Notes: generated from the letters alone by a model not told the origin. DNA of 64,000 nt from Dehalococcoidia bacterium (GCA_025054935.1 JANWZD010000013.1:1-64000), one strand, 5' to 3'; counted from the first letter of the stretch, positions 44,441 through 54,330 are shown. Made by a program: numbers and translations.

Positions 44441-45640
44441 GTGCGTGTCGGGCTCTACATCAACCCCCAGACGCCGGGGCCGGGCCATGATTACCGATTG
44501 ATCACCGAGGTGATCGACCAAATCGAACTGGCGGAATCGCTCGGCTTCGAGGACGTCTGGCTGACGGAACACCACTTCACCGATTACAACGCCTATAGCG
44601 ACCCGGTCGTATTCGCTGCCGCTCTCAGCCAGCGGATCAAATCGATGACGGTCGGCTTCTCGCTCGCCGTTGTCCCCTTCCATCATCCGATCCGCTTCGC
44701 GACGCAGATGAACTTGCTTGATAACCTGCTCGATGGCCGCCTGATCGTCGGCGTCGGCCCCGGCAACTCGCCCGATGAGTTCCGCGGCTTCGGATTGGAC
44801 GCCACCAAGCGTCATGAGATGAACCGCGAATTCATGGAGATCGTCGAGCAGGCGTGGGCGGCGCCGCCGGAGGGCTTCGAGTATCACGGCACGTACTGGA
44901 GCGGGGTCGTCAAGGGCCGGATCATTCCGGAGCCGGTCCAGAAACCGCGTCCGCGCGTTGCGTGGGCTACTCTGACGCCAGAGACCGTCTACTTTGCCGG
45001 CAAGAAGGGCTATTCGTGGCTGATCGGTCCCCAGAACCAGTACTGGGTCGCGCCGCGCATCAAGCGCTATATGGATGGCTTGCGCGACAGCGGCCTCTCT
45101 GAGGAGATGCAGCAGCGCGCCTGGTACGGCACCGGCATCCTCCGTCAGATCTACTGCGCCGCGCCGGGGGAAGATTGGCGCGAGACGATCGGTCCGTATA
45201 TCGACACGTACATCCGCAAGGCCGCCAAGGCGAATACCGGCATCGACGACCTGCCGAAAGATGACTTCGAGCGGCGCAAGCAGGGCTATCTCGGCAACTG
45301 GCTGTATGCTGGTACCGCCGAGGAGCTCGTCGAGAAACTGGCGCCGTTCGGCCGGCTGGGCGCGCGCCATCTAATGTGCTGGCTGAACTTCGGCCACCTG
45401 CCGGACAAGCTGATCAAAGAATCGATGCTCCGCTTCGCTGCTGATGTTCTGCCGAAGCTGAAAGAGGTCACCTTCGAGCCTGCCTATGTCGACGAGGTGA
45501 TCGCTGCCACGCCCGAAGGCCCGCAGTTCTGGTCGCCGTCGGTTACCGCCTCCGGCAAGCGCGAGAAGGGCGTCGCCCTCACCGAGGAGCAAGCGGCGGC
45601 ACAGGCGGCGGTTGGCCTGCAGGTGCAGAACATCCCCTAG
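44441..45640 (+). CDS. LLM class flavin-dependent oxidoreductase
   Basis: A 399-residue TIM-barrel flavin monooxygenase or oxidoreductase of the bacterial-luciferase superfamily. Landmarks are INPQTPGPGHDYRLI near the N-terminus, ESLGFEDVWLTEHHF (beta2-alpha2), VVPFHHPIRFATQMNLLDNL, and GRLIVGVGPGNSPDEF. It uses reduced FMN or F420, which cannot be told from sequence. The GTG at 44441 has AAGGAGGAG upstream. It is a close paralogue of the two LLM genes at 52-54 kb. IclR control is likely, given the shared intergenic region. Confidence 0.93.
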   Translation: MRVGLYINPQTPGPGHDYRLITEVIDQIELAESLGFEDVWLTEHHFTDYNAYSDPVVFAAALSQRIKSMTVGFSLAVVPFHHPIRFATQMNLLDNLLDGRLIVGVGPGNSPDEFRGFGLDATKRHEMNREFMEIVEQAWAAPPEGFEYHGTYWSGVVKGRIIPEPVQKPRPRVAWATLTPETVYFAGKKGYSWLIGPQNQYWVAPRIKRYMDGLRDSGLSEEMQQRAWYGTGILRQIYCAAPGEDWRETIGPYIDTYIRKAAKANTGIDDLPKDDFERRKQGYLGNWLYAGTAEELVEKLAPFGRLGARHLMCWLNFGHLPDKLIKESMLRFAADVLPKLKEVTFEPAYVDEVIAATPEGPQFWSPSVTASGKREKGVALTEEQAAAQAAVGLQVQNIP

Positions 45641-45659
45641 GGCGCTGGCCTACTCCGCT

Positions 45660-45685
45660 CGGGCGAGGCGTGCCAGCCTCGCCCG
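45660..45685 (+). terminator. 10-bp perfect hairpin after the first LLM gene
   Basis: CGGGCGAGGC (45660-45669) pairs with GCCTCGCCCG (45676-45685) around GTGCCA. It lies 20 bases after the stop and 66 bases before the next gene. There is no T-tract, so it may attenuate rather than stop read-through into the second LLM gene. Confidence 0.5.
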
Positions 45686-45751
45686 GACCGTGGGTGCAGG
45701 GACTTTCCCGCTCGCTCCCAGCTTGCGCGCGGCGGGACAGGAGGTGCGGCG

Positions 45752-46795
45752 TTGAGGATCGGGCTCGCGAACATCTACAGTCTTCGGCCCGGGTCGACGT
45801 GGCGCGAAAGCTGGGAGCATCTCGTCTGGCAAGTGCAGTTCGGCGATGCGCACGGCTTCGCGAACTTCTGGCTGACCGAGCATCACTTCACCGAGTACGG
45901 CGCGAGCGGGTCCCCAAGCGTCATCCTCGCCAATCTCGCCGCGCTGACGCGCCGTATCCGGCTTGGCTACAGCGTGGCGCTCTTGCCCTTTCACCATCCG
46001 GTTCGTCTCGCCGAGGAGATGCTCCTCATCGATCAAATGAGCCAAGGCCGGCTCGACATCGGCGTCGGCCGCGGCCATGCGCCGCTCGAGACCGCGGTCC
46101 TGTGCCCGGACCCCGAGCGCGCCGTCGACCTCTTCGAGGATGCCTTCGCTCTGATCGCGCTCGCCTTCCGCGGCAAGCCGTTCGCTTTTGCGGGCAAATA
46201 CTGGCGCTTCCCTGAGATCCAGCTCTACCCCTTGCCCTACCAGCAGCATCCCGAGATGTATATGGTGATGACCTCGCCGCGCTCGATCGCCTTCGCGGCG
46301 CAGCACGGCGCCATCCCCGTGCTCGGCAACCGGCCAGGCGAGATGCTGCGCGAGCAGCTCCGTCAGTACGAAGAAGCAGCGCGCGCCGCCGGCACTCCCG
46401 AGGACCTGCTCCAGCATCGGCTGCGCCGCGTTTCGGCGTCTCGGTTCGTGGCGATCGGCGACTCACGCCAAGAAGCGTATGAGACAGCGCTCCGCGAGGT
46501 GGCGCACTATCGCTATGCGCTCCAACTCTATCAGCTGCCGGTCGGTGACCCTGCGTTCCACCGCGAGATCCGAGAAACGGTGCCGGTGGTGGCGACGGAG
46601 GAAGAACTGCTGGGAGCAGTGCTGTGGGGCACCGCGAGCGACCTGATTGAGCAGCTGCGCGAACTCGAGCGCGTCGGGATACGTCAGCTCTCAATCTCGC
46701 TCGACTCGCCAGTGACGCCGCCCGAGGAGGGGCGTCGCCGGCTCGAGCGCTTCACCCGGGAGGTGCTGCCCGCGCTCGATGGCGCGGCCGCCTAA
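45752..46795 (+). CDS. LLM class flavin-dependent oxidoreductase (diverged paralogue)
   Basis: A 347-residue luciferase-like protein. FANFWLTEHHFTEYG, RLGYSVALLPFHHPVRLAEE, and GRLDIGVGRGHAPLE are the superfamily landmarks. It lacks the NPQTxGP start of the other three LLM proteins here, so it is a separate subfamily. The start is TTG 45752 (reading MRIGLANIY), with AGGAGG seven bases before it; no ATG or GTG gives a better N-terminus. It lies 111 bp downstream of the first LLM gene. Confidence 0.9.
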   Translation: MRIGLANIYSLRPGSTWRESWEHLVWQVQFGDAHGFANFWLTEHHFTEYGASGSPSVILANLAALTRRIRLGYSVALLPFHHPVRLAEEMLLIDQMSQGRLDIGVGRGHAPLETAVLCPDPERAVDLFEDAFALIALAFRGKPFAFAGKYWRFPEIQLYPLPYQQHPEMYMVMTSPRSIAFAAQHGAIPVLGNRPGEMLREQLRQYEEAARAAGTPEDLLQHRLRRVSASRFVAIGDSRQEAYETALREVAHYRYALQLYQLPVGDPAFHREIRETVPVVATEEELLGAVLWGTASDLIEQLRELERVGIRQLSISLDSPVTPPEEGRRRLERFTREVLPALDGAAA

Positions 46796-47245: not shown

Positions 47246-49099
47246 TCAGTCAATCAGCCGCAGCTTCACCGGCGTGGGATCCATCGCGACGAGCAGGGGC
47301 TGGCTGATGCTGGTGAAGGAGACGACCGCCTGCCCGGGCGCAAGGCTGCCAAGCTGCCGCCACAAGCCGTCGTCCACGGTGCCGAATGCCTGGCGGAGGT
47401 CGCGGAGGACCGTCGCGTCGGTCAGTCGGTGGAGGATGACGTTGTTGACGAGGCCGAGGATTTCCCGCGGCAGGTGCTGCGGCGACTGGGAGACGAAGCA
47501 CAGCCCGAGGCGGCGCTTGCGGCCGCGCCGCGCGATGCGGGCGATTTGGTTGAACAAGATCGGCATCTGCTTCACCCGCTCGGCGGAGATGAACTCGTGG
47601 GCCTCTTCGACAATCACGAGCGTGCGCGGCGGCGGATTGCCGTTCCGAACCGAGCGGTCAAAAGCTTTTTCTTGTTCCACCTGCACCAGCCGCAGCACCT
47701 CCGCGATGGCGAGGTTGCGCTGGTAGGGCGACTCCATCTCTGAAAGGTCAAAAATGCTGACGGTCCCGGGTTCGACCAGCTTCACTTTAGTGAGGCGGGT
47801 GCCTTTCTCGTTGTCGAACATGCGCAAACGGCGGATGACGCCGAGCCGGCCTTGAAGCGCGCGCCAGCTTGCGACGTTTTTCGGCGGCTGCTCGTTGATC
47901 GCCGCTTTTATTGCTTCAGGGAAGTGGCTTGACCAGAGCGGATTTGGATCCCAGAGGGAAGAAGGCTCCTTCTTGCCGTCGAGCCAATCGGCAAAGGCGC
48001 GCACCACGTCATAGAGCGCCGAGAGGCGCAGCCCTGGGAAGCCGCGCTCTTGGTCGTCCCACTGCAGTCGTCGCTCGCGCTCGCCGTTGAGGAAGACGTG
48101 GATCGTGAGATCGACGGCAAGCTCATACGCGCGGTAAAACCGCTCGATTTGCGCTTCGCTCAGTTCCAAAATCTCAGCGATGGTTGCTGGCGCAAGCTGG
48201 TCGAACATGAGGGTAAACGGCTGCCGGCACGGATGCGCGGGGTTGCTTGACCCATGGCCGACGAGGTGATAAAGCCGGATCGCCTCTTTGGGGATCCCTC
48301 GCGCCTCCTGACCACGCTCCCGCAGGAAGCGCAGCATCGTGGCGTCGTCTGTCGGTTCGTGAATGAAGGTATATTCGCCTTCGACATCGAGGACGATGAT
48401 CGCCATCCCTCGCGCTCGCGCTTCGGCGATCAGGCGCGAGACGGTCGTGCTCTTGCCGCTGCCGGTGCTGCCGAGGACGGCAAGGTGGCGCGGCAAAACA
48501 CTCTTGTCGCTCGAAGGGATCCGCACCTCGAGATTGTTGTAGCCGACGGCGCGGCCGAGCAGGATGTCGCCCTCGACCTTGAGGAAGCGCTTGACCTCCT
48601 CTTCCGACAGGAGAAAGACGGGGCTGTTTGGCCGCGGCCGGAAGCGCGGCGGCTGCAGCTGCAGCGAGCCGTCCTCCACCTCCTCGCCGAGGATCTCGAC
48701 CGCCGCGCGTCCGTGATAGTGCGGGAGGAACATCGAACTTCCGCGCGCGGCCGTCGTCGTGATGATCGGCGAGTCGCCGCGCAGCCCGTCCGGTTCGTGA
48801 AAGGGGCCGCTGATGACCACACCGAGGAATGAGCGCGCCGCGGCATTATCGGTTGCCTCGGTGCGGATGCGGACGAATGTCCGATTGGCCACCCGGTCGA
48901 GCTGGCCGGCGGGCACGATCACCGTCACCGTGCCGTCATCGCTCGCTGGGGTGTCGAAGAGGGTGACGCCGACCGACCCCTGCCGATGGGCTGCAGGCTG
49001 CAGTTCGCCGCCGAGGGCGGTGATCTCCTCGTCGATACGGGCGACTGCCGCTTCGGGAACGGGCCGCGGGGTCACTTCAGTCGTCAGGCTCGTGCTCAT
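47246..49099 (-). CDS. herA: HerA-type DNA translocase / helicase (DUF87 ATPase)
   Basis: A 617-residue FtsK/HerA superfamily ATPase. The N-terminal about 180 residues include a beta-barrel-like HAS domain (residues about 25-130). Walker A is LGSTGSGKST (about 209-218), then IIVLDVEGEY, Walker B is LVIVEEAHEF (about 493-502), and ARRGRKRRLGLCFVSQSPQHLP is the HerA arginine-finger and sensor region. HerA forms hexamers that pump DNA and partner the nuclease NurA in end resection. ATG 49099 has GGAGGTGCC upstream. It is the last gene of a five-gene operon, 13 bp after the nurA-type gene. Confidence 0.92.
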   Translation of the reverse strand: MSTSLTTEVTPRPVPEAAVARIDEEITALGGELQPAAHRQGSVGVTLFDTPASDDGTVTVIVPAGQLDRVANRTFVRIRTEATDNAAARSFLGVVISGPFHEPDGLRGDSPIITTTAARGSSMFLPHYHGRAAVEILGEEVEDGSLQLQPPRFRPRPNSPVFLLSEEEVKRFLKVEGDILLGRAVGYNNLEVRIPSSDKSVLPRHLAVLGSTGSGKSTTVSRLIAEARARGMAIIVLDVEGEYTFIHEPTDDATMLRFLRERGQEARGIPKEAIRLYHLVGHGSSNPAHPCRQPFTLMFDQLAPATIAEILELSEAQIERFYRAYELAVDLTIHVFLNGERERRLQWDDQERGFPGLRLSALYDVVRAFADWLDGKKEPSSLWDPNPLWSSHFPEAIKAAINEQPPKNVASWRALQGRLGVIRRLRMFDNEKGTRLTKVKLVEPGTVSIFDLSEMESPYQRNLAIAEVLRLVQVEQEKAFDRSVRNGNPPPRTLVIVEEAHEFISAERVKQMPILFNQIARIARRGRKRRLGLCFVSQSPQHLPREILGLVNNVILHRLTDATVLRDLRQAFGTVDDGLWRQLGSLAPGQAVVSFTSISQPLLVAMDPTPVKLRLID

Positions 49100-49112: not shown

Positions 49113-50306
49113 TCAGCGGGTCTCGCGCTCGCTGAGGTAGCGGTAGGGCTTGCCGCGCGCTGCGTAGGCAGCCCGGACGAGGTCAGCGATCGAGGCGGGG
49201 TCAAAGACTGCGCGTGCCACTGCGTCCGCGAGGTCGATCAGCAAGGGAAAGCCGCGGTGCTCATGAAGCGTCGAGTCGGCAAGCGCGATCAATGCTGCTT
49301 CGTGGACGCGCTCGCGGTGAGCGTAGAAGACATAGGGAGGAGCGAACTCGGAGGCGCGGTAAACGCCGCGCACCAGCTTCGGCCCGTACTCGTCGATGAA
49401 CTCGCGCGCCTCATCGCGGGAGCGGCGGAGGTAGGTCTCTGCCTCGACGATGCGGCGCATCGCGTCCTCAGCCGTGTCGTAGACGACGTACTCCAGCGGG
49501 CGAAGCGCATCGCCGATCGTCAGGAGGTCGCGTTCGGTCGTCTCGCTTTGGACGAAGACGAACTTCTCGAAGTCGATGAGCCGGCGCAGCAGGTCGAGGC
49601 TTTTCCTCAAGAACTCCGCGCTGCCCGAGCCGGTGAGGAGCGGGAAGGAAACGGGATTGCCGTGGCCTAAGCGCCAGGGCGCGCGTCCCATCTCGAGCAG
49701 GATGGCGCGCTCCATGTAGGCCATAATGCCGGAGCGGCCAAGTTGAGTCAGCCGCGCGTGGCGGTCAGCGGGATGCCCATTCTCGCGGATGCGGCGGTCC
49801 AGCAGTGCCACCAGCTCGTCGAACGGCGTCATCCCGCGCAGCCGGAGGTCACGCCGGTAGAGCCGATGCCCCCACGTGCCGTAGCTGCCGTCGTAGGAGA
49901 CCAGCACGACGCCGATCGACATGACGGTCAGCGGGAGCGTGTCGTGGGCGACGCTTGTGCCGTCGGCCGCCTCCACTCCGCCGCGGAAGAGGAGCCCGAA
50001 ATGCTGGCGGCGGATCAGCTCCGGGGTGGCGGCGTAGAAGCCTATCTCGTCCCCGAGGTCGCGGCTGGCGAGCCGGGCTTCCTCGATGCGGCCAAAGATG
50101 TGCTGCCGCACGGCAAGTTTCGTGGCATCGGCCTGGCGAAGTGCTTCGTCCACCTCCTCATCCAGCCGGCGGTAGAGGTCATCGAGCTGATCAGCGGGCT
50201 GCCAAGCACGCGGGTCGAGGACGCGGTCGAGCGGTTCGCCGTAGCCGGCGGCAAACTCGTCGCTTGGCGGCGCGGGGCCGTTGCCGGGGAGCAAGACGTC
50301 GCTCAT
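49113..50306 (-). CDS. nurA: NurA-like DNA double-strand-break repair nuclease
   Basis: A 397-residue protein matching the NurA nuclease in layout. A helical N-terminus precedes a beta strand with the metal-binding aspartate D115 in VEAADGTSVAHD, then LPLTVMSIGVVLVSYDGSYG, an internal helical region, and a C-terminal GFPLLIDLADAVARAVF helix corresponding to the NurA C-terminal acidic/His motif. It is followed by the HerA gene, its usual partner. The start overlaps the ImmA stop as ATGA. The call depends partly on that context, because NurA proteins are divergent. Confidence 0.8.
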   Translation of the reverse strand: MSDVLLPGNGPAPPSDEFAAGYGEPLDRVLDPRAWQPADQLDDLYRRLDEEVDEALRQADATKLAVRQHIFGRIEEARLASRDLGDEIGFYAATPELIRRQHFGLLFRGGVEAADGTSVAHDTLPLTVMSIGVVLVSYDGSYGTWGHRLYRRDLRLRGMTPFDELVALLDRRIRENGHPADRHARLTQLGRSGIMAYMERAILLEMGRAPWRLGHGNPVSFPLLTGSGSAEFLRKSLDLLRRLIDFEKFVFVQSETTERDLLTIGDALRPLEYVVYDTAEDAMRRIVEAETYLRRSRDEAREFIDEYGPKLVRGVYRASEFAPPYVFYAHRERVHEAALIALADSTLHEHRGFPLLIDLADAVARAVFDPASIADLVRAAYAARGKPYRYLSERETR

Positions 50307-51037
50307 GGCGTCTGCGCTCCGGCAAGCCACGCCGGCAGCCGGCGGTCAAGGTGAAGGCACGTGAGCAAGCGCCCCGCATAGCTGGCCGCGACCGCCGGCG
50401 GAAGGGAGAACGCCGCGACCAGACGCTCGGTCAGGACTGTCGGGCGCTCCAAGGGCGGCAGGTCGGCCGTCGCTGCCGCGAGCGGCAGCGCTGCGTCCGC
50501 TGGCGCGATCAGCTCGATCGCGAGGCGGTCGGCGTCGCTCTCATGCGCCATTGTGGCGAGGGTGTCGTATTCGAACAGATCAACGTAGGCACCAAGGGGA
50601 ACACCTCGCAGCACTGCGCTCAGCCGCTCGTCGTCGGTGGGAGGGCGATCGCCATCCAGCACCGGCGCGATGGCAGGGCCGAGCAGCCTGAGTGCGCGCT
50701 CGCGCGGACGCTGATAGTCAGCGAGATAGTGGGCGAGCTCGTGGGCGAGGGTGAACTGCTGCTCCTCTGGAGGGTCGCTGCCGTCGATGAAGATGACGCC
50801 GGTGTCACGCTGGACGAGCAGGCAGCCATGCAGCCGCCCGCTTCTGCCGTCAAGCTGGGGCGCGATCCCATAGCGGGCCAGCCACGCATTCACCGACTGG
50901 GGGCGGAGCCGAGGCAGGCGGACGACAACGAGCGGCGTCACGAGGCTGATGGCATCTTCGAGGCGGGGGCGCGGTCCCGGGCCGACTGCGCGCCAGAACG
51001 CCTCGGCGAGCCCCTCGATCCACGCCGGGTTGAGCAC
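50303..51037 (-). CDS. ImmA/IrrE family metallo-endopeptidase
   Basis: A 244-residue zinc protease. The HExxH motif is H99-E100-L-A-H103 in FTLAHELAHYLADY, and the third ligand region is HESDADRLAIELIAP, as in ImmA and Deinococcus IrrE. Such proteases cut a partner HTH repressor after DNA damage or phage signals. The start is GTG 51037, directly abutting the TAA of the HTH gene, with GAGGAG seven bases upstream; the stop overlaps nurA. The immediately preceding HTH protein is the natural candidate substrate, by analogy with IrrE-DdrO and ImmA-ImmR. Confidence 0.92.
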   Translation of the reverse strand: MLNPAWIEGLAEAFWRAVGPGPRPRLEDAISLVTPLVVVRLPRLRPQSVNAWLARYGIAPQLDGRSGRLHGCLLVQRDTGVIFIDGSDPPEEQQFTLAHELAHYLADYQRPRERALRLLGPAIAPVLDGDRPPTDDERLSAVLRGVPLGAYVDLFEYDTLATMAHESDADRLAIELIAPADAALPLAAATADLPPLERPTVLTERLVAAFSLPPAVAASYAGRLLTCLHLDRRLPAWLAGAQTP

Positions 51038-51385
51038 TTACGGCTCCTCGTCCTCCTCGCGCCAGCGCGCTGCCTGCAGGTTGAATAATTCTTCTCGACG
51101 CGGCCTTCGCCCGAAATGCGTCATGCGAACGATCCGGGCCAGCGCAAAGGGCGAGGCGCCGGTCCGGTCAGCGATGGCGCGGATGTCTTCCGCGAAGAAT
51201 TCGTCACGCGGGATGCCGCAGAGGGCAAGGCGCGCCAGCCCCCTTTCATCGACGCCAAGCTCTTTCGCCAGCATCTCGTCGGTCAGCCGGTGGACCTCTT
51301 GATGACGCGCCAAGAGCGACCCCAAAAGCTTCGGCTCCTGGCGGGCGCGGCGGGCGGCGTGAAGGAGGAAGGCCTCAGTTTCCAT
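51038..51385 (-). CDS. Small XRE-like HTH protein, putative ImmA substrate/repressor
   Basis: A 115-residue protein. The helix-turn-helix region is LTDEMLAKELGVDERGLARLAL (residues about 33-55), followed by helices reading DEFFAEDIRAIADRTG and PFALARIVRMTHFGRR, and an acidic C-terminal tail. No membrane segment is seen. The ATG at 51385 lies inside the end of the sigma-factor gene (11-bp overlap), and the stop abuts the ImmA start. It probably binds DNA or RNA polymerase; repression of this operon is inferred by analogy with DdrO/ImmR. Confidence 0.75.
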   Translation of the reverse strand: METEAFLLHAARRARQEPKLLGSLLARHQEVHRLTDEMLAKELGVDERGLARLALCGIPRDEFFAEDIRAIADRTGASPFALARIVRMTHFGRRPRREELFNLQAARWREEDEEP

Positions 51386-52013
51386 AGCGCCACCCTCGCC
51401 GCCGCAGCGCCCGCTTGAGCCGGATCCTGATGCGATCCTTCGTCTGCTTGACTCGGCGCCGCTGCTCCTCTTGGCTCAGATGCGTGATCCGGAGGACGCG
51501 GGCAAATGCCTGCGTCGAGCGCACGCCGCGCGCCATCAATAGGAACACCTGACGATCCTGTTCGTCCGGCAGCTCGCGGAGAATGGTATCGATAAGCACC
51601 GGGTCCACCTCCTGTACCCAGCGGTCCGGATCGACTGTCGGGTCGGCGAGCCGTTCCGCTAGTGGAGTGTTCCCTTCTTCCGCGAATTCTGCGACAGCCT
51701 CGAGGGACAAGACCTGCTGATGCTTGCGCTCGCTATTGATTCGATTCTTCAGGTCTCTCTCGGCACTCATCCGAAGGTAGCCGAAGAGGGAGCCGCGATC
51801 CGGCTGATACGTCGTGGGGCGGTGGATCAGGTCAAAGAGGGTGTCGGTCACGGCGTCGGCAATCCACGTCTCATCGACGCGGTATTTCCCGGCGAGCCAT
51901 CGCGTGAGTGCCGGCCCTGCGTGCTCCACAAGGTCGAGCGACGCAGTCGGGTCGCCAGCGAGAAGGCGTTCGTGGGTCGCGCGCAGTGCGGTTTCGTTCA
52001 TCCAGTCCATCAT
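51375..52013 (-). CDS. RNA polymerase sigma-70 family (ECF-like) sigma factor
   Basis: A 212-residue protein. Region 2 is recognisable in ETWIADAVTDTLFDLIHRP and GSLFGYLRMSAERDLKNRI. A linker follows, then a region-4-like helix set in LRELPDEQDRQVFLLMARG and a basic C-terminus (KQTKDRIRIRLKRALRRRG). The fit to region 4 is weaker than to region 2, so it may be a divergent or non-canonical sigma factor. ATG 52013 follows a TATAAT by four bases, suggesting leaderless expression. It is the first gene of the HTH-ImmA-NurA-HerA operon. Confidence 0.8.
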   Translation of the reverse strand: MMDWMNETALRATHERLLAGDPTASLDLVEHAGPALTRWLAGKYRVDETWIADAVTDTLFDLIHRPTTYQPDRGSLFGYLRMSAERDLKNRINSERKHQQVLSLEAVAEFAEEGNTPLAERLADPTVDPDRWVQEVDPVLIDTILRELPDEQDRQVFLLMARGVRSTQAFARVLRITHLSQEEQRRRVKQTKDRIRIRLKRALRRRGWRYGN

Positions 52014-52016
52014 ATC

Positions 52017-52046
52017 TATTATACGCGATCTTCGCGCAGAATGCGA
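52017..52046 (-). promoter_or_regulatory. Promoter of the sigma-HTH-ImmA-NurA-HerA operon
   Basis: On the minus strand TATAAT (complement of 52018-52023) is preceded, 18 bases upstream, by TTCGCA, which matches TTGACA at four of six positions. Only GAT/AGAT separates the -10 from the ATG at 52013, so transcription should start at or just before the start codon and give a leaderless mRNA. The AT-rich patch stands out in this GC-rich DNA. Confidence 0.55.
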
Positions 52047-52109
52047 ACATCTGTTTTGGTGGAGCTCCACAGGACGGGATGCGCGCTCGCTGCTGAGGGA
52101 AACCGGCGC

Positions 52110-53207
52110 TCAGCGGCGCGGCGCAATGTGCTCGCCTTCGGCCGCGATCCGGCGCTGCAGATCTGGGTCGGGAGCGATAGCCGCGAGAGCAGGAAGCACG
52201 TCGGCAGCGTAGCGCGTGATCGAGCGGCGCACGAGCTCATCGGGCAGGTAGCCGAAATTGAACCAGCACATGAGATGGCCGATGCCGAGCTTCGCGTAGG
52301 GCGTGAAGCGTTCGATCAGTTCCTCTGCCGTCCCGTAGGCGAGCCACTTTTCCTTGAAAAAGGCGCGGCGCTCCTCGAATTTGTCCTTCGGCATGTTGTC
52401 GATGCCGAAGTTTGCCTTCAAACTCTCGCGCACATAGTGCGTGATGTACTCTCCGATCGACTCCTCGATATCCTCCCCGGGAGCGAGCACGTAGATCTGG
52501 CGCATGTAGCCGGTATGCGCCCAAGCGCGGGCCCGCGCTTCCTCGCTCACGCCTGCTTCGCGCTGCCCCTTGTCGAGCCGATAAATCAGCGGCTTGAGCG
52601 TCTCCAAGGTGTGGTAGGGCGCAATCAGCCATGACCATCCTTTGCGGCCGATCAATTCGACGGTCGCCGCAGTATCGGTGCCCCAGGCCACATGCGGATG
52701 AGGCTGCTGCACTGGCGCCGGGATGACACGCCCTTTCACTGTGCCGCGCCAGAATTGGCCTTCGTAAGAAAATCCGTCGGGGTCTTGCTGCCACGCTTTT
52801 TCGAGCACTTCGACGAACTCGGCGATCATCGCGTGGCGGTCGGCGGCGTTGAGCCCATACCCGCGGAATTCGTCCTCGGCGTTGCCCGGCCCGATGCCGA
52901 TGACGACGCGCCCATCCGTTAGCTGGTCGAGGAGGTTCGCCTGCACTGCGAAGCGGACCGGGTGATGGAGGGGAGCGACGGCGAGCGAGAAGCCGATCCG
53001 CAGGCGCGGAGTACGCTGACTGATCGCCGCAGCGAGCAGGAGGGGGTCGCTGTAGGTGTTGTAGTTGCTGAAGTGATGCTCGGTCAGCCAGACGTCCTCG
53101 AAGCCGAGCCGCTCGGCGAGGTCGATCTGCCCCAACACTTCCTTGATGAGGCGGCGGTCGTGAGCAGGGCCGCGGGTTTGAGGGTTGATATAGATGCTCG
53201 ATCGCAT
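52110..53207 (-). CDS. LLM class flavin-dependent oxidoreductase
   Basis: A 365-residue luciferase-like protein starting MRSSIYINPQTRGP. RLGFEDVWLTEHHFSNYN, LAVAPLHHPVRFAVQANLLDQL and GRVVIGIGPGNAEDEF match the paralogue at 44441 almost position by position. GAGGAGG lies six bases before the ATG. It is the second gene after the LLM gene at 53236-54330, 28 bp apart, on the same strand. Flavin type and substrate are unknown. Confidence 0.93.
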   Translation of the reverse strand: MRSSIYINPQTRGPAHDRRLIKEVLGQIDLAERLGFEDVWLTEHHFSNYNTYSDPLLLAAAISQRTPRLRIGFSLAVAPLHHPVRFAVQANLLDQLTDGRVVIGIGPGNAEDEFRGYGLNAADRHAMIAEFVEVLEKAWQQDPDGFSYEGQFWRGTVKGRVIPAPVQQPHPHVAWGTDTAATVELIGRKGWSWLIAPYHTLETLKPLIYRLDKGQREAGVSEEARARAWAHTGYMRQIYVLAPGEDIEESIGEYITHYVRESLKANFGIDNMPKDKFEERRAFFKEKWLAYGTAEELIERFTPYAKLGIGHLMCWFNFGYLPDELVRRSITRYAADVLPALAAIAPDPDLQRRIAAEGEHIAPRR

Positions 53208-53235
53208 CAGCTGCCTCCTCGGAAGAGCGCGGCGG

Positions 53236-54330
53236 CTAGCGCGGGCGCCACGCTTCGGCTTGGACACCCTCGGCGACGATCTGATCGACATACCCCGGCT
53301 CCGGCTTCGTTGCGGCGAGGACCGGGGCGACATCGGCGGCGAAGCGCATCATCGACTGGCGAACTTGCCAGTCTGGCATGTGGCCGAAGGTGAACCAGCA
53401 CATCAGGTGCGCGATCCCCATTTTGGCGGCCGGCGTCAGCCGCTCGATCAGCTCTTCGGCGGTGCCAGCGATCAGCCAGTTCTTGAGGTACCCTTCTTTG
53501 CGCCGCTCGAGGTCATCTTTCGGGAGATAGTCGATCCCGGAGTTGGCAAGGGCGCTTTTGCGGATGTAGGTCTCGATGTAGGGGGCGATCGTCTCGCGCC
53601 AGTTTTCGCCGGGGGCAGCGCAGTAGATCTGGCGCAACTGACCAGTGTCGAGCCAGGCGCGCGCCTTCGTTGCTTCGTCCAGCCCCGCCTCGTCCATAGC
53701 GCGGGCGTAGGCTTGGAGTCGGGGCGCGACGATACTCTCGTGCTGGGGGCCGATCAAGAGCGACCAGCCGCGGCGGCCGATGCGCTCGATCGTTTCCATC
53801 GTTGTCGTGCCCCAAGCGATGTGCGGATGCGGCCGTTGGAGCGGCGTCGGGATGACGCGTCCCCGCACCTCGCCGTTCCAGTATTTCCCTTCGTAGCGGA
53901 AGTTCTCTTGAGTCCAGGCCTGCTCACAGATCGCAAGAAACTCATCGAGCATCGCGTGGCGTTCGTTCACCGGCAGCCCGTAGCCGCGAAACTCGTCCGG
54001 CGAGTTTCCCGCTCCGATCCCGATCACCAGCCGGCCGCCGCTCAAGCGGTCGAGCAAGTTGCACTGAGTGACGAAGCGGATCGGGTGGTGGTAGGGGATG
54101 ACTGCGACAGAGAAGCCGATCTTCAGGCGCGGATTGCGCTGGCTGATCGCGGTCGCCAGCACGAGGGGGTCTGAGTAGGCGTTGTAGCCGGTGAACGCAT
54201 GCTCGGTGATCCAGACGTCGTCGAACCCGAGCTGCTCGGCGAGATCCACCTGCCCGAGCACTTCATCGATAATGCGTCCGTCATCCTCAGGGCCAGGGGT
54301 CTGCGGGTTGACGTAGAAGCCGACGCGCAT
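53236..54330 (-). CDS. LLM class flavin-dependent oxidoreductase
   Basis: A 364-residue luciferase-like protein starting MRVGFYVNPQTPGP. EQLGFDDVWITEHAFTGYN has Ala where the paralogues have a second His (TEHHF); this His often contacts flavin or substrate, so specificity may differ. VAVIPYHHPIRFVTQCNLLDRL and GRLVIGIGAGNSPDEF follow. GGAGGACG precedes the ATG. It is divergent from the solute-binding lipoprotein at 54545, which may bring in the substrate; that link is inference. Confidence 0.93.
   Translation of the reverse strand: MRVGFYVNPQTPGPEDDGRIIDEVLGQVDLAEQLGFDDVWITEHAFTGYNAYSDPLVLATAISQRNPRLKIGFSVAVIPYHHPIRFVTQCNLLDRLSGGRLVIGIGAGNSPDEFRGYGLPVNERHAMLDEFLAICEQAWTQENFRYEGKYWNGEVRGRVIPTPLQRPHPHIAWGTTTMETIERIGRRGWSLLIGPQHESIVAPRLQAYARAMDEAGLDEATKARAWLDTGQLRQIYCAAPGENWRETIAPYIETYIRKSALANSGIDYLPKDDLERRKEGYLKNWLIAGTAEELIERLTPAAKMGIAHLMCWFTFGHMPDWQVRQSMMRFAADVAPVLAATKPEPGYVDQIVAEGVQAEAWRPR

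Follow-up and report, generated by a model that had tools for sequence, protein, structure and literature searches.

A conserved sigma/HTH/protease operon with NurA-like and HerA genes in Chloroflexota: a candidate restriction-like anti-phage cassette

Described relatives and the operon in the window

HerA-NurA cuts DNA and resects its ends in archaea (PMC12977600), and DUF4297-HerA blocks phage by abortive infection (PMC11291478). Regulated proteolysis has been documented in other settings. Cleavage of HTH repressors is stimulated by ssDNA in the action of CapP on CapH and of PprI on DdrO (PMC10904395), and in type III-E CRISPR a protease releases a defence sigma factor (Csx29-Csx30-sigma; PMC10028731). 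MORC ATPases have been described in restriction-modification settings (PMC2292703).

The window analysed here is a stretch of 64,000 nucleotides, on contig 13 in a draft assembly of 3.57 Mb; the sister species, which was found through HerA, is represented by a metagenome-assembled genome of the Dehalococcoidia (Chloroflexota). Five genes run along its minus strand. They encode an ECF-like sigma factor (51375..52013), a small HTH/XRE-like protein of 115 aa (51038..51385), an ImmA/IrrE-type zinc metallopeptidase (50303..51037), a NurA-like protein of 397 aa (49113..50306), which belongs to a divergent family and is tied to NurA by gene position and weak profile evidence, and a HerA-type hexameric DNA translocase of 617 aa (47246..49099). 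The junctions given in the initial annotation, and the end of herA at 47246, proved exact to the base: the sigma stop (51375) and the HTH ATG (51385) overlap by 11 bp, the ImmA GTG at 51037 abuts the HTH gene, the ImmA stop (50303) and the NurA-like ATG (50306) overlap by 4 bp in a common ATGA, and a 13-bp gap lies between the NurA-like stop (49113) and the HerA ATG (49099). The 5′ end of the sigma gene had to be revised. It had been placed near 52046, and a TATAAT box occupies 52023-52018, so that translation probably starts at one of the in-frame ATGs just downstream of it, at 52013, 52010 or 52001, giving about 208-212 aa according to the ATG chosen. This box belongs to a predicted sigma-70-type promoter on the minus strand, TTCGCA-18-TATAAT (52018..52047), directly upstream of the sigma gene; it was the single match, at 10/12 positions, in a scan of 5.5 kb.

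An inverted repeat, TTCGC-N7-GCGAA (52031-52047), covers the −35 element of this promoter and is tentatively a candidate operator for the HTH protein. An N8 version stands upstream of sigma in genus g77; the repeat is absent from that position in L022, and no operator upstream of sigma was common across the loci compared. Close to the sigma start the N7 or N8 repeat was seen in just two lineages, one of them the window's, and it was picked with the data already in view; we therefore do not claim it as a conserved operator. Four paralogous genes, luciferase-like monooxygenases by appearance alone, flank the cassette on both sides (44441-46795 and 52110-54330), and their order is the same in L022.

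Judged from its sequence, the fifth gene product is certainly a HerA, as initially annotated. It matches PF01935 (DUF87) at 4.5e-20, its profile matches the solved DNA helicase HerA 9x1l at 8e-34, and the Walker A (G-x-TG-x-GKS) and Walker B (EE) motifs are invariant or nearly so. The profile also matches several solved HerA-type ATPases beyond the archaeal repair ones. No relatives of this HerA were found in the plasmid collection.

Conservation and neighbourhood of the cassette

Gene-order conservation, which the initial annotation had proposed as a check, was surveyed in 401 Chloroflexota genomes; beyond this set, one search with exact peptides of a single protein returned the sister species as sole match. 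The NurA-like gene is present in 19 of the 401 genomes, and in 16 of these 19 the complete sigma-HTH-ImmA-NurA-like-HerA series stands in order on one contig. Contig edges truncate two of the remaining three; in the third (G073), the sigma/HTH/ImmA trio and the NurA-like/herA pair are split between contigs, and a helicase gene precedes the pair. All five genes also occur in the sister genome L022, in a genome of the same class (L087) and on a viral contig (L045). The notion that the regulatory trio is never adjacent to nurA-herA in related genomes is thereby contradicted. The ImmA subfamily is found in all 19 NurA-like-positive genomes and in one more of the 401, where the contig ends after ImmA (hypergeometric 1e-31). 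Chance adjacency is ruled out by this co-occurrence together with the conserved order, and the five genes are a conserved operon in Chloroflexota. Since the family distances of sigma, ImmA, NurA-like and HerA correlate strongly (Mantel r 0.82-0.95), the cassette is taken to move as one unit. Its order is kept across many families; its presence is patchy, even within genus g77, and scans of viral contigs found it on two contigs only.

The combination of sigma/HTH/ImmA with NurA-like/HerA was not found described in the literature searched, which included few subscription papers. None of the PADLOC-listed systems (MADS, Sir2-HerA, BREX, DISARM and others) has its full gene set at the window; PADLOC returned generic HerA, capP and mad8-type matches, a weak TniQ match for the HTH protein, and none for sigma or the NurA-like protein.

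At 16 of 22 informative loci the cassette has a sixth gene as direct neighbour, which encodes an N4/N6 DNA methyltransferase (PF01555; PADLOC type II methyltransferase). Three arrangements occur: the gene may precede the cassette in the same direction, be divergent from it, or lie convergently after herA. Because adjacency is constant while orientation varies, a functional link is suggested rather than transcription read-through. The close subfamily of this methyltransferase is present in 11 of the 401 genomes, ten of which carry the cassette (hypergeometric 4e-14). Relatives below ~50% identity were rejected as cassette markers, as they are not cassette-specific; distant ones adjoin MORC-like GHKL ATPases, a Z1 protein or NgoMIV-type restriction enzymes, which are restriction-modification contexts similar to those known for MORC ATPases (PMC2292703). 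Where the neighbour is a MORC-like ATPase or the Z1-domain protein (L182-L185, L199), a methyltransferase of one kind is thus combined with different presumed restriction modules.

CRISPR-cas genes neighbour the cassette in five loci, as Cas10-Cmr1, Cas6, Cas4-Cas1 or Cas1-Cas3. Type I restriction-modification genes and a serine recombinase stand beside it in L045, and L047 carries phage-tail genes. The methyltransferase and CRISPR neighbours point to restriction-like phage defence over repair. Of the damage- or phage-induced module that had been put forward at annotation, DNA damage becomes the weaker reading in view of these neighbours. In one locus (L032:2428-6407), type III-B cmr1 and cas10 follow directly downstream of herA and no methyltransferase is adjacent.

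The cassette occupies the same chromosomal place in three species of the window's genus. It is intact in the window's species (G000) and in G401, and comparison with the sister species gives it a dN/dS of 0.14-0.24, as against 0.05-0.10 for the neighbours, so it evolves under purifying selection, yet faster than its surroundings. In the third species, G400 (L086, G400:C253:1-4600), sigma, nurA-like and herA carry frameshifts and the HTH and ImmA genes are gone, while the flanking genes can still be aligned for the most part; the erosion could be either real decay or a draft-assembly error. No methyltransferase of the cassette family was found within the 64-kb window or at L022. An orphan type II-like methyltransferase gene does exist elsewhere in the window's genome (L092:6753-8084, G000:C5), between a ParA-like gene and a UvdE (UV endonuclease) gene. 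It is syntenic in G401, at 76% identity, and is missing beside the same ParA-like gene in G400. It is a candidate trans partner of the cassette, for which a concordance from three species is suggestive only.

These data bear on the foremost rival to a restriction-like reading, namely that the cassette is an anti-phage HerA-nuclease system acting by abortive infection, with no methylation-based discrimination of self from non-self and with the methyltransferase as a neighbour that is independent or has a regulatory role, in the manner of DUF4297-HerA or Sir2-HerA type systems. The four loci with no methyltransferase adjacent or nearby (the window, L022, L032 and L037), the match of the HerA profile to ATPases beyond the archaeal repair ones and the abortive infection reported for DUF4297-HerA (PMC11291478) speak for it. 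The adjacency at most informative loci, the near-specific co-occurrence of the methyltransferase subfamily and the concordant loss of cassette integrity and methyltransferase in G400 weigh against it, and we regard it as unlikely.

The NurA-like protein and the regulatory genes

The fourth gene had been called a NurA-like nuclease. Its position and a weak C-terminal profile similarity uphold that name; a recognisable canonical NurA it is not. It matched nothing in Pfam, NCBIfam, PADLOC or the PDB, and none of the 18 members of its family matches PF09376 (NurA), which in the genome picked out only another gene, a canonical NurA at G000:C10. D115, E199, R200, E272, D344 and D358 are invariant in the 18-member alignment. 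Going by rough spacing, D115, which is part of a DG motif, would correspond to motif I of canonical NurA and E199 to motif II, and the predicted motif-III Asp is an invariant T225, in a mapping built on spacing and a weak profile alignment. Comparison of 18 relatives with canonical NurA by hhalign gave P=0.0016 over 93 C-terminal columns, as against 0.1-0.7 for the other cassette profiles used as controls and 0.019 for the window HerA profile; GFPLLIDLAD was aligned with GYPYALERAD, and several relatives carry the canonical AH. Canonical NurA identity was rejected, hhalign alone having given a signal, with Pfam, PDB-profile and mutual HMM searches no better than shuffles. From shallow alignments, AlphaFold reached a mean pLDDT of 48.6 with three sequences and 36.8 with four, and a Foldseek search with the better of these poor predictions returned only noise. 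No relatives were found in the plasmid or phage collections. In a separate locus (L089:5266-9700, G407:C28), a NurA gene (PF09376, weak), a HerA gene and a queuine tRNA-ribosyltransferase-like gene are consecutive, an arrangement that may connect HerA-NurA with deazaguanine-type DNA modification.

It may be asked, then, whether the NurA-like protein has a structural or adaptor role within the HerA hexamer, with another host enzyme doing the cutting. The threonine at motif III, the missing PF09376 match and the poor fold prediction would suit such a role. The motif-I Asp, Glu199 and the C-terminal D358 site, kept in 18/18 members, and the C-terminal co-linearity with canonical NurA argue for a catalytic one; an adaptor is rather improbable, and the protein is probably, not certainly, a nuclease.

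As for the regulatory genes, the ImmA/IrrE zinc protease with its HELAH motif was confirmed. It matches the M78 family (PF06114) at 9.4e-10, and H99-E100-H103 of the HExxH motif and the downstream E166 are invariant in 13/13 sequences. Its profile matches the structures of IrrE (3dte), PprI/IrrE (8slm) and CapP (7t5t), which are the nearest solved relatives and place the protein, by sequence comparison, in the IrrE/CapP superfamily. Since it belongs to that superfamily, protease-triggered control of the cassette is plausible by analogy.

The XRE-like HTH and ECF-like sigma assignments hold in part, profile matches being present for both. The HTH identity of the 115-aa protein is weak: the window protein matches HTH_31 at E=0.018, the same model is matched by five of nine family members, and a C-terminal AA motif is invariant in the alignment. 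It is presumed to be a repressor or anti-sigma factor and the substrate of the protease. The sigma factor appears ECF-like at scores under curated cutoffs, with 39.4 bits (4.6e-10) against a cutoff of 42.9 for TIGR02937, which is matched by 7 of 15 family members, and 18.2 against 24 for Sigma70_r2; its profile matches a solved structure of ECF sigma-E region 2 at E=0.002.

A DNA-damage response, in which ImmA senses damage, frees the HTH protein or sigma and induces HerA-NurA end resection for repair, would suit the kinship of the protease with IrrE/PprI, which senses ssDNA (PMC10904395), and the end resection by archaeal HerA-NurA (PMC12977600), and is nevertheless quite improbable because a canonical NurA exists elsewhere in the genome and the patchy spread, the decay in a sister species, the fast evolution relative to neighbours and the defence-type surroundings are unlike a repair core.

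Proposed mechanism and comparison with known systems

We consider it moderately probable that the cassette is a restriction-like anti-phage operon, a regulated HerA plus NurA-like effector with a methyltransferase marking self. Gene content, order, conservation, selection and the methyltransferase and CRISPR associations are the observations from which this proposal starts. HerA as motor and the NurA-like protein as probable nuclease would form a DNA-degrading effector. The methyltransferase, whose gene is as a rule a direct neighbour and probably lies elsewhere in the genus of the window, would label host DNA as self. Such an effector would be kept under control because it is dangerous: the small HTH protein may keep the operon silent, the sigma factor inactive, or both, until a signal, for example ssDNA during infection or damage, activates the ImmA/IrrE protease and the HTH protein is cleaved, after which the sigma factor would boost expression. 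Nuclease activity, self-marking, cleavage, trigger and sigma target are thus the proposed part. More tentative, and possible at best, is the full chain of an inducible restriction-modification system in which, with self marked by methylation, an ssDNA-sensing ImmA-type protease cuts an HTH anti-sigma or repressor, frees sigma and so turns on HerA/NurA-like. The missing family methyltransferase at the window and L022, the lack of a nearby one at L032 and L037, the three-species basis of the trans partner, the weak NurA homology with its apparently missing motif-III acidic residue, the weak HTH assignment and the lack of a conserved operator count against the favoured explanation.

If true, the cassette would bring together three principles so far known apart, namely self-marking by methylation, DNA destruction driven by HerA and transcription controlled through a triggered protease. 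It would also make testable the idea of a restriction system that infection signals switch on, in place of one that is permanently active. Of further value are the divergent NurA-like family, whose active site is altered, and the compact sigma/HTH/protease switch, which might be reconstructed in laboratory strains.

HerA-nuclease defence is a known kind of system, and the regulated five-gene form looks undescribed. With canonical HerA-NurA the cassette shares a clear HerA motor, a gene of NurA size immediately before herA, the NurA-like C-terminal pattern and the DG motif; it differs in a NurA-like protein unmatched by PF09376, with Thr for the predicted motif-III Asp, in the separate canonical NurA of the genome and in the fixed sigma/HTH/ImmA genes. 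DUF4297-HerA and Sir2-HerA likewise pair a HerA ATPase with an effector gene, whereas the effector family here is different and the regulatory trio and methyltransferase are added. Similar to CapH-CapP (CBASS) and PprI/IrrE-DdrO, whose solved protease structures (CapP, PprI and IrrE) are matched by the profile of the cassette protease, an HTH gene adjoins an ImmA/IrrE-type protease in a defence-like operon; here, however, an ECF-like sigma is added, a HerA nuclease replaces the CBASS or damage regulon, and cleavage is putative. Type III-E CRISPR (Csx29-Csx30-CASP-sigma) also holds a protease, a small partner and an ECF-like sigma in one defence locus, and one cassette sigma family member weakly matches the III-E sigma model, but the cassette has a metalloprotease instead of a CHAT protease, an HTH protein instead of Csx30, and no Cas7-11. 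Finally, related PF01555-type methyltransferases are found in restriction-modification-like systems with MORC/paraMORC ATPases, Z1 or NgoMIV and in MADS. In PADLOC, mad8 is matched by the cassette HerA and mad2 by the methyltransferase; no other MADS genes were seen adjacent to the cassette, and in contrast to the MORC, Z1 and NgoMIV systems its restriction module would be HerA plus the NurA-like protein.
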